From Polyangiaceae bacterium (GTDB taxonomy: Bacteria > Myxococcota_A > Polyangia > Polyangiales > Polyangiaceae): 64,000 nt of DNA. This document shows positions 36,759-42,963 of the stretch, in pieces. A model generated the notes under the pieces. It did not search any database, was not told the DNA's origin, and saw only the letters and a program-made list of their open reading frames with translations. Numbering within the stretch: the stretch's first letter is position 1; each line of letters starts with the position of its first letter. Made by a program: the position numbers and the translations under genes. The stretch spans positions 1-64,000 of the forward strand of contig JABSRN010000013.1 in assembly GCA_013214025.1 (NCBI GenBank). Reading direction: 5' to 3'.

Positions 36759-37661
36759 ATGGACCGGGAAGTCCCTTAGCCCGTCCGTGGGCTGTCGGCG
36801 CTGGCATTGCTAGCGGTGGTGATATTCTTCGGCGCGGCAGTCCTCTCGGCGAGTAGTTCCGGTCAATACTCGCTGATGGACGCGGCCTACTTTGCGGTGA
36901 TTACGGTGTAGACTGTGGGCTATTCGGAAATGACGGAGGTGGAGACACTGATCGGCTGATCGGCCGGCGACCGATGCCCATTGGGTGGATGGTTTGCGGC
37001 GTGGTCGCAGTCGTTTATTTTCAGTCGATGCTGACCGCGGTGTTGGTGGAGGGCGCCATCGTTAAGGCGCTGAAGAATGAGGATCATGGACAAGAAGATC
37101 GCTGGCATGTCGGGCCATATCGTTGTTGTCGGAGCAGGGCGAGCATGACGCCGCCCATCAACCTTCCGGCTCTGGAGCGCCCCTTATGCGGCGCCACGAG
37201 CGTGGCGCTTGCTGCTTAGATTCTTGCTACCCCATGTCCTATTCGCGTTGACACATTCCGGATCGTTGCCAAAGCAAACGTGGAATCCGCGGAGGCCAAA
37301 CTAGAGAAAGCCGGCGCGGACGTAATCGGTGAACGCGCACCGTATCGGTGGCATGCGCATGCTGAGCGAGATGGTACGTCCCCAGGCCGTTGAATTCCTG
37401 GACAGCATGTTCGGGCGAAGTGGCGATAACCTGCGTTTTGATGACGTAATGGTCCCCAAAGGCTCCCGGATGGTGGGACAGTGTCTGTGGCAAGCTCTGA
37501 TTCAGGAAGAAACGAATCTTTTGGTGGTGGCAGTCCGGAACGCCGACAGGGAATACATCTACAATCCGGCTTCCAGTTTTGAACTTCGTGCCGGAGTTCG
37601 CCCAATTGTATTGGGCGAAGCGGGAGACATCGCCAAACTGAAGAAACTCATCGCAGTTTAG
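36759..37661 (+). pseudogene. Wrecked potassium channel with TrkA-N and TrkA-C domains
   Basis: The pieces follow the order of a two-helix bacterial K+ channel. From ATG 36759 the frame stops at 36777, reopens as VRGLSALALLAVVIFF and runs to TAG 36909, just before the selectivity-filter text TVGYSEM. The second helix and LTAVLVEGAIVKALKN lie near 36974-37080. A frame change then gives MSGHIVVVGAGRA, the start of a TrkA-N Rossmann fold. Most of TrkA-N is deleted. VAKANVESAEAKLEKAGADVI resumes near 37263, and after a one-base shift near 37330 the TrkA-C end (MRMLSEMVRPQAVEFLDSM to LKKLIAV) is intact to 37661. At least two stops, two frame changes and one deletion are present. Confidence 0.85.
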
Positions 37662-37678: not shown

Positions 37679-38437
37679 ATGCGCGCCGTGACTGAGACCA
37701 ACGTTTGGCGCCGATGCAGTACCTGCCGCAAGGATTTGGCCTACAAAAGCGGGTATTATCGCTGCAGTGTTTCCACCTGCAACAAGAAGCGTACCGCCCT
37801 CTACTTCTGTTCTGTTCCTTGTTGGGACGCTCACCGCGCCGAGGCGAACCATCGGGACGCCTGGGCGGAGGAAGAAACCGCCCCTACGGAGGAGGAATGG
37901 GCTGAACAGCGCAACGCGACCACAAGAAAAGCCTCACCCAAAGCCAAGTCCGGCCCGGCGGCTAAGCCTCCGATGGTGCCACCTACGCCCCAGGGCAAGG
38001 TGAAGACCGAGGTGCTGGTTGTTGCGTCGCGATTCAACGCCTACGTGAGCCAGCGCTCCCGATACAAGACCACAGAGAGCGTGTTGTACCCACTCTCGGA
38101 CCATCTGCGAGAGGTCTGCGACGAGGGCGTAGCCGCTGCCCTACGTTCCGAGCGACGCACGTTGATGGATCGCGATTTAGCGCCATTGTTTGAGGGTCAG
38201 GATACCGGCGGAGAGCCCGAATCCGAGAAGCAGGTTCTCGTCGTCGTGACTCGACTGAAGGCCTACGTGAAGGCGTCTTCTGGGATGAATACGGCGGAGT
38301 CGGCAGTCGTCGTGCTGTCCGAGCATCTGCGCTACCTCGCGCGTCGAGCTATCCAAGAAGCCGGCCGTGCCAACCGTACGATATTGCTGGATCGGGACGT
38401 CACGGCAGTGCTGACCGGCGGTCGCGGAGAGGGCTAG
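37679..38437 (+). CDS. Zinc-finger protein with two histone-fold domains
   Basis: The 252-residue product has an N-terminal treble-clef-like zinc finger with C13, C16, C29, C34, C44, C48 and H52/H58, similar in spacing to HIT or MYND fingers (YFCSVPCWDAHRAEANH). A Lys/Pro/Ala linker leads to two copies of one domain, at about residues 111-161 and 186-236. Each has a VLVV(A/V)(S/T)R start, a long central helix (LSDHLREVCDEG; LSEHLRYLARRA) and a closing RRTLMDRDL or NRTILLDRDV. This order matches the histone fold of archaeal HMf and of bacterial histones, including the Arg-Thr pair before the last helix. The product would be a double histone with a zinc finger, likely DNA-binding (inference). 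In-frame GTG 37688 is 7 bases after TAGTAT, so the start may be there. Confidence 0.8.
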   Translation: MRAVTETNVWRRCSTCRKDLAYKSGYYRCSVSTCNKKRTALYFCSVPCWDAHRAEANHRDAWAEEETAPTEEEWAEQRNATTRKASPKAKSGPAAKPPMVPPTPQGKVKTEVLVVASRFNAYVSQRSRYKTTESVLYPLSDHLREVCDEGVAAALRSERRTLMDRDLAPLFEGQDTGGEPESEKQVLVVVTRLKAYVKASSGMNTAESAVVVLSEHLRYLARRAIQEAGRANRTILLDRDVTAVLTGGRGEG

Positions 38438-38606: not shown

Positions 38607-40154
38607 TCAGGGTCGCAGCGAATACTTCATCGGACCTTGGCTCGGGTCGAGTTGGGGCGTCACCTGATCCAGCCAGTCGGCGGCGTAGACCCGAGTTTCC
38701 CGGGGATCGATCAAGTCGTGGATGCCGAAATCTTCGGCGCGGGGAAAAATGGACTGGCCCAGGGCCATTTCGTCCTCCAACTCGCGTCGACGAGCGGCTG
38801 GATCGTCCGCGCTCTCTATCTCTCGTCGGAATCCGAGGGCCACTCCGCCTTCTACGGGCATAGAGCCAACTTCAGCGCTCGGCCACGCGATGACGGTGGC
38901 GCCCGGTCCGAGTTGGATGCCCTGGGCCACCCCGAAGGATTTGCGCAGCACGATGGCTAGCCACGGCACGCGACTCTGGACCGCCGTAAACAGCGTTTCG
39001 GTTCCGTAGCGAATGGTTCCCGCCTCTTCGGCAGCTTTGCCGATCATGAAGCCCGGTTGATCGATGAAGCTGAGCATGGGGAGGTGGAAGGTGTCACAGA
39101 GCTCGATGAAGCGGCGCACTTTTTGGGCCGACTCCGCCGTCATCGCTCCGCCGTCCCGCATGCAGTCGTTCGCCATGACGCCTACGCTGTGCCCGTTGAG
39201 CCGAGCTAGGCCTGTGACCATGCTGCGGCCGTAGAACGGCGTTTTCTCGAAAAAGCTGCCGTGATCCACGATGCGAGTGAGCAACTGACGAACGTCGTAG
39301 GCACGGCGGCGACGGCTGGGCATGATTTGCAGAAGCTCTTCGTCAGCGCGCCCGGCGGGATCGCTTCCTTTGAGCATGGGCGCTAACTGACCACTGTGGG
39401 AGGGAAGGTAACTGAGAAAGCGCGTGATCTGGGCGCACAGAGCGGGCTCGTCCTTGGCGATGTTGTCGACGACACCGCTCTTGCTGTGCAGGTGCGCGCC
39501 GCCCAGCTCTTCTTTGGTGATTTTTTGCCCCAGCGCCCGTTCTACGAGAGCGGGCCCCCCGGTCATCACTTGGGCATCGCCGGTCATGACGGAGAAATGC
39601 GAGGCTACCAAGCGCGCCGCCGGAAATCCCGCAACCGCCCCGAGAGCCGCGCACACCACCGGTACGGTGGCGAGCGCCTCTACGCTCAGTAGCGTTTGCT
39701 GAGAGGCCGCCGTCATGTCGAAGCCCGACTGCCCTCGCCGCCCGGAGATACCCTGGATGCTGGCGCCACCGGAATCGAGCAATCGCACCAACGGAATTCG
39801 GCGCTCGATGGCGAGCTTCTCGGCGTAGAGCGCTTTCTTTAGGCCGGTGGTTGTGTAGGCGGCTCCGCGTAGTGTGAAGTCGTCGCCGCAGATGACGGCG
39901 CGACGTCCGCCAATCTTGCCAGTGCCGACAACGGCGTTGGCCGGGGTGAAAAGTTCCGTGCCGTGGTCGTCTTCGGTGGTGCCGGCGATACGACCGATCT
40001 CCCGGAAGCTATCGCTATCCGTCAGGGTATCGATGCGTTCGCGCACGGTGAGGCGCCCGCGATCGTGCATTTTTTGGACGGCCTCTTTGCCGCCCATTTG
40101 TTTCGCCGTCTCGCGGCGCTGATTCAGGCGCTCGACATCATCGTCCCAGGTCAC
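38607..40154 (-). CDS. Acyl-CoA carboxylase carboxyltransferase subunit
   Basis: From GTG 40154 the 515-residue product is a biotin-dependent carboxyltransferase of the propionyl/methylcrotonyl/geranyl-CoA carboxylase beta family. It has both crotonase-like halves: DRGRLTVRERID and LLDSGGASIQG in the first, and FIDQPGFMIGKAAE and GPGATVIAWPSAEVGSMPVEGG in the second. It transfers CO2 from carboxybiotin to an acyl-CoA. No biotin carboxylase or BCCP gene is adjacent, so its partner is elsewhere. It lies downstream of two CoA-transferase genes on the same strand with a 120-base gap, suggesting one operon. The open frame to 40235 adds Arg-rich residues that do not fit. Substrate is not determined. 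Confidence 0.9.
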   Translation of the reverse strand: MTWDDDVERLNQRRETAKQMGGKEAVQKMHDRGRLTVRERIDTLTDSDSFREIGRIAGTTEDDHGTELFTPANAVVGTGKIGGRRAVICGDDFTLRGAAYTTTGLKKALYAEKLAIERRIPLVRLLDSGGASIQGISGRRGQSGFDMTAASQQTLLSVEALATVPVVCAALGAVAGFPAARLVASHFSVMTGDAQVMTGGPALVERALGQKITKEELGGAHLHSKSGVVDNIAKDEPALCAQITRFLSYLPSHSGQLAPMLKGSDPAGRADEELLQIMPSRRRRAYDVRQLLTRIVDHGSFFEKTPFYGRSMVTGLARLNGHSVGVMANDCMRDGGAMTAESAQKVRRFIELCDTFHLPMLSFIDQPGFMIGKAAEEAGTIRYGTETLFTAVQSRVPWLAIVLRKSFGVAQGIQLGPGATVIAWPSAEVGSMPVEGGVALGFRREIESADDPAARRRELEDEMALGQSIFPRAEDFGIHDLIDPRETRVYAADWLDQVTPQLDPSQGPMKYSLRP

Positions 40155-40274
40155 GGGCGTGAGTGTATCAGGAGCTGGGCGAGCTCTGAAGCACGGCCGA
40201 TTCGCGCCCCCCGAACGAAACCCCCTCCGACGCAATGCGGCCCGGACGGACGCCAGCCCCCGGCGATCGTTCGC

Positions 40275-41495
40275 CTAGACGAACAGTTCTTCGCTCGTTA
40301 GTCGGTCGATTTCCGCGATGGTGTAGCCGAGGATTTTCGTTAAGATCTCGCGGTTGTGCTCGCCCAGCAGAGGTCCGGGCTTATCGAAGCCGCCCCCGCT
40401 CTCGGAGAGCCGGAAACCAGGGCGCTCGAAAGCGGCGCGTCCGAGGTACTTGTGTTCGAGCCAAACGAAGTGCCCGCGGTGGTTCAGCGCCGGATCCTCG
40501 AGCAGGTCGGCTTGATTGTTCAGCGCTCCGGCTTCGACGCCCGCGGCTTGTAGTTTCGACATCAGCTCATTGCGGTCGAAGGCCTGGCTCCATTCGCCGA
40601 TCGTTTTGTCGATGTGTTCCTGCGCCTCGACGCGCCCTTCGAGAGAATCGTAAGAGCTGTTGTTGAGCGCCTCTGGGTTGCCCATCTCTTTCTTGAGAGC
40701 TGTCCATTCGGTGTCGGTTTGTACTGCGATGGCGATCCAGCGGTCATCCCCGGTAGTGGGATACACATTGTGTGGGGCGGCGAACTCGTCGTGGTTGCCG
40801 CGCCGCTCTTCGGTCTCGTTGTTGGCGCTCTGGCGTACGATGGCGGCAGACATACTGTAGACGGCCGTTTCGATCTGGGAGACATCGATGTAGCGGCCTT
40901 CGCCGGTGCGACGCCGATGAAATAGAGCCGCCGCGATGGCACAAGCCACGTACTTGGGCGACAGGGAATCGGTAATGGTGCCGAAGGGGCCGACAGTTTC
41001 CCGCCCGGGCCAGCCGGTGACGTAGGCGAAGCCCGAAAGGGCCGTACCTTGTCCGCCAAAGCCTGGGTAAAGCCGGTCGGGGCCTGTTTGCCCAAACAAG
41101 CAACCCGACGCCATCACCAAATCGGGCTTCAGTTTCTTGAGATTTTCGTAGGTGAGCCCCCACTTCGGCATCACCTTGGGCGAGAAGTTTTCGCACACGA
41201 GATCGGCCCACTGCACCAAGCGTCGAACGATGTCTGCGCCTTGTTCGTGTTTCATGTTGACGGTCAAGCTTTGCTTGTCCGTATTGAGCAATGCGAACAT
41301 CAGTGCGCTGTCCATACGCTCGGCCATAGTATCCGTCTTGACGGCCATCATGAGGCGCAAGAAATCGGGTCTGTGGGCAGACTCGATACGAATGACGTGG
41401 GCCCCTTGCTCCGAAAGGTAGCGGGTGGAAATGGGGCCAGCCGCGCCAGCGCCCAGCTCCAAGACCTTGAGTCCCTTGAATACGCGCTCAGTCAT
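40275..41495 (-). CDS. Family III CoA-transferase (CaiB/BaiF), second of a pair
   Basis: The 406-residue product has the CaiB/BaiF/formyl-CoA transferase fold. It starts with FKGLKVLELGAGAAGPISTRYLSEQGAHVIRIE. The catalytic aspartate is in RYIDVSQIETAVYS. The C-terminal region HRGHFVWLEH is typical. Such enzymes move CoA between acids, usually as interlocked dimers. Its start overlaps the stop of the upstream CoA-transferase gene by one base (TGATG), so the two are translationally coupled and may form a heterodimer, as in BbsEF-type enzymes. The downstream carboxyltransferase suggests a joint pathway of acid activation and carboxylation. Confidence 0.92.
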   Translation of the reverse strand: MTERVFKGLKVLELGAGAAGPISTRYLSEQGAHVIRIESAHRPDFLRLMMAVKTDTMAERMDSALMFALLNTDKQSLTVNMKHEQGADIVRRLVQWADLVCENFSPKVMPKWGLTYENLKKLKPDLVMASGCLFGQTGPDRLYPGFGGQGTALSGFAYVTGWPGRETVGPFGTITDSLSPKYVACAIAAALFHRRRTGEGRYIDVSQIETAVYSMSAAIVRQSANNETEERRGNHDEFAAPHNVYPTTGDDRWIAIAVQTDTEWTALKKEMGNPEALNNSSYDSLEGRVEAQEHIDKTIGEWSQAFDRNELMSKLQAAGVEAGALNNQADLLEDPALNHRGHFVWLEHKYLGRAAFERPGFRLSESGGGFDKPGPLLGEHNREILTKILGYTIAEIDRLTSEELFV

Positions 41496-42709
41496 CAGAT
41501 CACCCCCTGCTGTCGCAATGCGCTGACTTTCTCTGTGGATATGCCGGCCTCCTGCAGTACGGCGTCGGTATGTTCGCCGAGCTTGGGAGCCTTGCCGCGA
41601 ATTCGAACATCGTTACCAGTGGTTTTGGCAAAGAAATTGGGGTGTTCAATACTGGCCCCCAACTCTGGATAATCGAGGGTCACGAAGAGATCGCGACTGC
41701 GCAGTTGGCGGTGAGCCAACACCTCTGCCGAGTCGTTGCAAGGAGCCAACATGATGCGCCGTTTCACACTTTCCTCGAACAACTCGGCGCGCGTCTTGGT
41801 CTCGAAGAACGAGCCGAAGGCCTCTTCGAGGGGCGCAATCTCTTCAGAAGTCATCGAGAACACGTCGTAGTTTTTCCAGTTGTAGTTCTTCAGCCACTCA
41901 GGCGCGCAACCGGTCTCGTCCATATATTCTACGGTGGCCACCAGGTTGGGGACTCGGGTCGGTCCGCCGCGCAGACCGTAGGAGATGTAACCGTCCTTGA
42001 CCTTCCACACTTCTCGGGAAGGTCCGACACGGTAGCCCGCCCGGTGATTGATCACACCGTCTACCGAGTAGTTGCCGGTGTGGCAAAGCAGAGTCGACGT
42101 GTGGGTCTCCTGCATCGAGACGTCGACGAACTGCCCGCGCTGGGAGTCTTCTCGTGAATAGAGCGCCATGATGATGCCCAGCACCGCTTCGGGGGCGGCG
42201 TGATAGTAACTGGTCGGCATCGTGCAACGAATGGGCGGGCGATCGGGATCGCCCGTCATTTGCAGGTTGCCGCTCATCGCCACGATGACCAGATCGTGGG
42301 CGTTGTAGTGAGAGTAAGGGCCGTCTTGTCCGAAGGGGCTGATGGCGCAGTAAATCAACTTGGGGTTGTCTGCCACGAGTGCGGCGTAACCGAGCCCACG
42401 GTCCTTCATGAGCCCGGGCTGGAAAGACTCCAGCACGATGTCTGCCTGCTTGGCAAGAGTGCGGAAGACGTCTTGTCCGTCTGGTTGGTCTAGATCCAGC
42501 GTGATGCCGCGTTTGCTCGTGTTGAGCGCGAGCCAGGGGAGGCTACGCTCGGGGCCCTCCTTGCCTGCCAAGAACGGCCCTCGCTGGCGGATAGCGTCAC
42601 CTGTGGGAGCTTCGATCTTGACGACGTCGGCGCCCATATCGCCGAGAATCTTCCCGGCGAGGAAACCTCGTTCACAGGTGAGATCGAGTACGCGAATTCC
42701 GGATAGCAT
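41495..42709 (-). CDS. Family III CoA-transferase (CaiB/BaiF), first of a pair
   Basis: From ATG 42709 the 404-residue product begins MLSGIRVLDLTCERGFLAGKILGDMGADVVKIE, the usual N-terminus of the family. The catalytic aspartate is in GQFVDVSMQET. The C-terminal segment LFVTLDYPELG and NFFAKTTGNDVRIRGKAPKLGEHTD is typical. GAGGA lies about 12 bases upstream. The frame is open to 42817, but the extra residues are not family-like. The stop overlaps the start of the second CoA-transferase. Two different subunits side by side favour a heterodimer with narrow acid specificity. Substrates are unknown. Confidence 0.9.
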   Translation of the reverse strand: MLSGIRVLDLTCERGFLAGKILGDMGADVVKIEAPTGDAIRQRGPFLAGKEGPERSLPWLALNTSKRGITLDLDQPDGQDVFRTLAKQADIVLESFQPGLMKDRGLGYAALVADNPKLIYCAISPFGQDGPYSHYNAHDLVIVAMSGNLQMTGDPDRPPIRCTMPTSYYHAAPEAVLGIIMALYSREDSQRGQFVDVSMQETHTSTLLCHTGNYSVDGVINHRAGYRVGPSREVWKVKDGYISYGLRGGPTRVPNLVATVEYMDETGCAPEWLKNYNWKNYDVFSMTSEEIAPLEEAFGSFFETKTRAELFEESVKRRIMLAPCNDSAEVLAHRQLRSRDLFVTLDYPELGASIEHPNFFAKTTGNDVRIRGKAPKLGEHTDAVLQEAGISTEKVSALRQQGVI

Positions 42710-42963
42710 GATGTGTTGTCCTCGCAGCGGTGCGCCGGCGATGGACCGTTTCATCGAGGGCAGCGTGCAAGCATCTAGCGCAGTTCTTCGGCTCCGTCGA
42801 GATGGACTGGCGTGCACGAAACACTCTCAGGCCCGGCGTATTTGGTTCTCTACCGGGGCCCGTCAATATTCGGTCTTGTGAAGGCTGACCCCTGGGGAAG
42901 TGCTGGAAAGGGTGATCTAGCGTAGGCAACTTGGAGTGCCCGCGCGAGCGACCGCTGTGGGCC

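Follow-up and report, generated by a model that had tools for sequence, protein, structure and literature searches.

A ZZ histone variant with two histone folds in one chain and asymmetric DNA-contact residues in a Polyangiaceae bacterium

Introduction

One idea under discussion is that histone doublets mark a stage on the way from symmetric homodimers to obligate heterodimers. In bacteria, proteins that join a finger to an alpha3 histone were named ZZ histones by Schwab et al. in 2024, with one fold each, and the main text of that paper makes no mention of doublets in this class (PMC11390915). Crystals of the Bdellovibrio histone HBb (Bd0055) with DNA revealed that a single DNA contact combines loop 1 from one monomer with the partner's loop 2, the first monomer contributing K12, T23, S24, and A25 and the second K52, T53, and R57; simulation added contacts by N22 and K16 (PMC11317129). 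The bacterial entries in a 2026 review of double histone folds are only those of the 1WWI/1R4V type (DUF1931), which it describes as devoid of DNA-binding residues (PMC13088155).

Here, we describe a gene from a Polyangiaceae bacterium, found in a 64,000-nucleotide stretch of contig JABSRN010000013.1 (the window), whose product combines a finger with two histone folds. A text search of the literature returned no ZZ histone doublet; supplementary tables, which lie outside such a search, may list such sequences.

Results

The window protein carries two alpha3 histone folds

A histone-fold HMM built mainly from single-fold homologues matched the window protein (Table 1) twice, at residues 111-167 (i-E about 2e-25) and 186-241 (i-E about 3e-23), bearing out the two tandem repeats noticed in a first-pass annotation of the sequence. 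The folds are 41% identical to each other. With phmmer, fold 1 found HBb/Bd0055 (8cmp/8fvx; E 6e-4); for fold 2, the match was 9qt0, a histone of Leptospira (E 0.018). The fold profile reached HBb/Bd0055 at E 6e-20, followed by 9qt0 (3e-10), the Thermococcus face-to-face histone 9f2c (9e-8), and HMfB (1e-3); HBb outranked all archaeal nucleosomal histones in this search, and both repeats, which had been proposed to be histone folds, grouped with bacterial and archaeal histones. The two folds are thus of the alpha3 (bacterial) histone type, closest to HBb-type folds and with a short alpha3. On its own, the window protein gave no real match in Pfam or NCBIfam, and DUF1931 (PF09123) did not match it at E up to 5; DUF1931 matched 1 of 21 fold members, at 0.044.

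Table 1. Location and supporting evidence of the gene, its parts, and related loci
Feature	Position	Strand	Basis or remark
Zinc-finger (putative) double-histone-fold gene	37679..38437	+	ATG start, open frame, 252 aa, stop included; homologues
N-terminal Cys/His finger, residues 9-70	37703..37888	+	Invariant ligands; pLDDT mostly 93-98; D0LYE7-like spacing
Basic K/A/P-rich linker, residues 71-109, net +4	37889..38005	+	Composition; low pLDDT at residues 81-110
Histone fold 1, residues 111-167; loop 1 degenerate, loop 2 intact	38009..38179	+	HMM, phmmer, region scores
Acidic inter-fold linker, residues 172-184, net -4	38192..38230	+	Composition; pLDDT about 75
Histone fold 2, residues 185-241; loop 1 intact, loop 2 degenerate	38231..38401	+	HMM, phmmer, 9ezz superposition, region scores
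Doublet L008			G122; same MAG as L154, CG_4_9_14_3_um_filter_63_12
Doublet L033			G227; L155, MAG labelled Geobacter sp. QR_Bin.25
Doublet L151			Co_bin.297
Fourth doublet			The window protein
Finger-only locus L042	3972-4175		
Finger-only locus L120	983-1180		
Finger-only locus L125	1038-1238		
Finger-only locus L128	1032-1235		
Finger-only locus L146	964-1170		

The R-D clamp of HBb (R51 and D58) is kept in both folds, as R159/D166 and R233/D240. The HBb triplet R51-K52-T53 corresponds to R159-R160-T161 in fold 1 and to R233-T234-I235 in fold 2. Because the family HMM aligns the second copy ungapped, with R-T-I where the family has R-K-T, fold 2 keeps the clamp arginine without the canonical threonine. 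The Arg-Thr pair that had been read in both copies stands for fold 1 (R160-T161) and needs correction for copy 2, where the gap inserted to align it is unneeded and the canonical threonine is missing.

The finger resembles that of the ZZ histones

The eight finger ligands (C13, C16, C29, C34/C44, C48, H52, H58) are all present in the window protein and are invariant both in an alignment with 14 homologues and in a separate 19-member finger alignment, in agreement with the C/H-rich N-terminus and the ligands named at first pass. Seven of the eight positions match those of the ZZ histone D0LYE7 at a constant offset of 7. The fourth ligand is printed as C53 in the legend of Fig. 4 of PMC11390915 (C43 in the profile), where constant spacing predicts C55; the Cys-x3-Cys spacing occurs in every homologue that we aligned, and the printed C53 does not fit it. 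Judging from the sequences, C55 may have been meant.

Among the Pfam finger families, HIT, MYND, and ZZ included, none matched above its curated cut-off; MYND (0.017) and MYM/FCS (0.026) each gave weak hits in two of the finger proteins. The name "ZZ" therefore rests on the structural comparison of Schwab et al., and, of the "HIT/MYND-like finger" put forward in the first-pass annotation, the eight-ligand finger holds and the HIT/MYND label is unproven. By analogy with the ZZ histones, the finger would be expected to bind two zinc ions. Related Myxococcota families also contain proteins of 66-69 residues that consist of the finger only, with all eight ligands and no histone fold (Table 1).

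The two folds are predicted to pair within one chain

We modeled the protein with AlphaFold2 from an 84-row alignment that is deep for the finger and fold 1 and in which fold 2 is covered by the four doublets only. The model has a pLDDT of 85.9 and a pTM of only 0.55; a single-sequence model (pLDDT 38) was set aside. Both repeats are predicted to adopt the three-helix alpha1-L1-alpha2-L2-alpha3 histone fold, with helices at residues 116-127, 133-156, and 168-171 in fold 1 and 190-201, 207-230, and 238-245 in fold 2. Short strands appear at both loop 1s (130-131 and 204-205) and both loop 2s (161-162 and 235-236). Pairing of loop 1 and loop 2 strands across partners is established for histone dimers, and, because loops 1 and 2 lie at opposite ends of the 24-residue helix of one fold, the modeled strands point to pairing between the folds.

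The best Foldseek match was the doublet histone of Methanopyrus kandleri, 1F1E (E 1.5e-5), which VIA-align superposed over 131 residues with a Z of 10.4 and an rmsd of 3.0 Å. Similar Z values were obtained for SOS (10.7), single chains of H2A-H2B, the viral doublets of Melbournevirus, and the DUF1931 protein 1WWI (10.1), so these structural ties of the model show the double-fold arrangement and not the function. Fold 2 superposed on DNA-bound HBb (9ezz) at 1.5 Å over 62 residues. Together, the model predicts that the two folds pair inside one chain as a 1F1E-like pseudodimer. This predicted pairing and the histone profile matches support the earlier proposal of a pre-fused histone dimer.

DNA-contact residues are lost asymmetrically

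We mapped the HBb contact positions onto both folds, except for A25, whose contact with DNA involves no polar side chain. At the site where fold 2 supplies loop 1 and fold 1 supplies loop 2, seven of eight residues are kept (K194, K198, N204, and T205; R160, T161, and R165), with A206 differing, whereas the opposite site, formed by fold 1 loop 1 and fold 2 loop 2, keeps only three of eight (T131 and T132; R239) and differs from HBb at N120, S124, K130, T234, and I235. When each fold is counted by itself, five residues are kept in either one; it is the pairing of loops across folds that brings out the asymmetry. Given that loop 1 and the partner's loop 2 make one contact in HBb, the window protein would keep one end contact, with the other largely lost. 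The S/T and K/R contacts of alpha1 are kept.

Position 120, an asparagine in fold 1, is Lys or Arg in 143 of 143 single folds. The position-weight score of fold 1 loop 1 (z -4.6) lies under all 143 single folds and that of fold 2 loop 2 (z -4.1) in their lowest 1.4%; the remaining two loops are nearer normal (z -0.4 and -1.7). Doublet L008 has the same two loop losses (z -4.6 and -5.5). No asymmetric loss was seen in L033 and L151, which keep both sites, and the pattern is thus found in only two of the four doublets. Among random single-fold pairs, 0.16% reach a cross-fold site difference of at least 4, a comparison that was made after the pattern had been seen, that takes its site boundaries from the HBb paper (PMC11317129), and that rests on two proteins. 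These residue patterns suggest that the doublet now grips DNA at one end only, and the worn site could represent DNA binding on the way to full loss.

A degraded loop 1-loop 2 site would also be compatible with a double fold that has left DNA to become a protein-binding scaffold, as in SOS, SPT3, and DUF1931, with the finger and the folds assembling a regulatory complex. Fold 1 has a net charge of 0, SOS and 1WWI match the model as well as the DNA-binding doublets do, and the DUF1931 doublets are described as having no DNA-binding residues (PMC13088155). However, one site retains seven of the eight HBb contact residues, the alpha1 contacts persist along with the R-D clamps of both folds, and fold 2 has a basic composition (net +4, pI 10.4); we regard a scaffold role as unlikely.

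Single-fold ZZ histones need pairing between chains to form a histone dimer, and the 13-residue linker alone would not exclude swapping; the folds of the window protein might pair between chains, giving a dimer or a chain of doublets that bridges two DNA segments. Against this, the AlphaFold2 model has the two folds packed against each other in the same chain, much as in 1F1E, the complementary loop losses fit a fixed fold 1-fold 2 pair, and no tandem histone fold is known to homodimerize via its folds according to the 2026 review (PMC13088155). Pairing between chains therefore seems improbable to us.

Doublets are rare and scattered among single-fold relatives

An initial scan of genome contigs with the window protein alone found no relative. 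Homologues were gathered from Myxococcota genomes and from named contigs; those on named contigs belong mostly to Myxococcales, Polyangiaceae, and other deltaproteobacterial MAGs, with some from Bdellovibrionales and others. Phage or plasmid homologues were absent at E 0.01. The 161 distinct finger proteins comprise 13 without a histone fold (some cut by contig ends), 144 with one, and 4 with two, so that doublets make up 4 and single-fold proteins 144 of the 148 distinct finger-plus-histone proteins. The doublets (Table 1) sit in scattered lineages, and relatives with identical finger spacing have one fold. With two folds against the single fold of the ZZ histones, we call the window protein a doublet variant. 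Beyond the finger proteins counted with the fold HMM, a wider draw of 379 genomes, queried with L151, gave no further clear doublet among the matches listed, and the families of G122 (one genome) and G227 (two genomes) held none either.

Within each doublet, the two folds are 40-55% identical, and each is equally near to, or nearer to, some single folds; a recent internal duplication was rejected on these grounds. In a tree of the 57-residue folds, fold 2 of three doublets groups with three single folds (support 0.865), and the fold 1s are scattered. The rarity and scatter of the doublets, together with the residue losses in two of them, would be in keeping with a second fold that is a neutral, decaying duplication in a protein that functions no differently from single-fold ZZ histones. 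We consider this very improbable: the divergence between the folds implies that the duplications or fusions are old, and yet both folds have stayed open, with site-specific losses and both clamps intact.

Small ORFs of 64-106 aa that match only the histone fold were also observed (G012:C57:43744-43947, G022:C9:66626-66826, and G085:C77:5064-5306). At least G022 and G085 carry a finger histone in addition to a fold-only ORF, which suggests that two histone types occur in one genome.

Genome context and proposed mechanism

Upstream on the same strand, a 110-aa ORF with a TrkA_C (RCK_C) domain (window 37329-37661) ends 17 bases before the histone gene; it is no recurrent neighbor at other ZZ histone loci. 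On the minus strand, window 38607-42817 holds the gene for a carboxyl transferase and, after it, two for CoA-transferase III, with no apparent relation to the histone gene. A conserved operon around ZZ histone genes was rejected, as no neighbor family occurred in more than 6 of 127 loci.

The genome has four HU/IHF-family genes, and searches with PF00808 and with the family profile found no other histone-fold protein. Because PF00808 missed even the window gene, the family-profile search is the one that counts. Bulk packing is thus unlikely to depend on the window protein. The ZZ histone of Bdellovibrio has low expression according to Schwab et al. (PMC11390915).

On balance, we think it probable that the window protein is a single-chain, asymmetric pseudo-heterodimer of the ZZ histone class that bends DNA as HBb does, has one intact end site, and serves as a finger-tethered local accessory factor. 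The alpha3 fold, present twice in the chain, would pair internally, and the resulting pseudo-heterodimer, obligate and asymmetric, would bind and bend DNA in the manner of the HBb homodimer. Contact would be made by the paired alpha1 helices and the intact site (fold 2 loop 1 and fold 1 loop 2), and wear of the opposite site would leave the end contacts unequal, one firm and the other loose. The finger, on its flexible basic linker of ~39 residues, is probably a tether that links the module to DNA or a partner, and the doublet would thus act locally and not as a bulk nucleoid packer. Finger-based targeting, including the "targeted chromatin factor" of the first-pass annotation, is inferred here, as are zinc binding and the binding and bending of DNA.

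Discussion

The combination of a finger with a single histone fold is already known from the ZZ histones (PMC11390915); the unusual feature is the second fold. The doublet extends the ZZ histones. We offer only tentatively the broader proposal that doubling of the fold in a zinc-finger histone has independently given bacteria histone pseudo-heterodimers that are obligate and asymmetric; with one end contact lost, these would bend DNA directionally at places set by the finger. If true, bacteria would have taken a step like the one that led from the homodimers of archaea to the heterodimers of eukaryotes. A doublet of the DNA-binding HBb lineage would provide a small test system for the doublet-step idea, one in which the asymmetry can be measured and single-fold relatives share the family and order.

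The closest described proteins are the ZZ histones, represented by D0LYE7 of Haliangium (PMC11390915), with which the window protein shares an N-terminal C4 + C2H2 finger of matching spacing (7/8), a bacterial-dimer-like alpha3 fold after the finger, and occurrence in the same bacterial groups; the published architecture has one fold, whereas the window protein has two and an asymmetric loss of DNA-contact residues. HBb/Bd0055 of Bdellovibrio (8cmp, 9ezz, 8fvx, 8fw7) is alike in fold sequence, R-D clamp, and most DNA-contact residues, but is a 64-residue singlet homodimer without a finger. HMk (1F1E) and the viral histone doublets likewise have two folds per chain, with the internal pairing that is predicted here; however, they are not of the HBb (alpha3) type by sequence, lack a finger, and share only 15% identity. 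Finally, the DUF1931 proteins (1WWI and 1R4V; VIA Z 10.1 and 7.9) are also bacterial double histone folds, but they are reported to be without DNA-binding residues and have no finger, whereas the window protein belongs by sequence to the alpha3/HBb branch.
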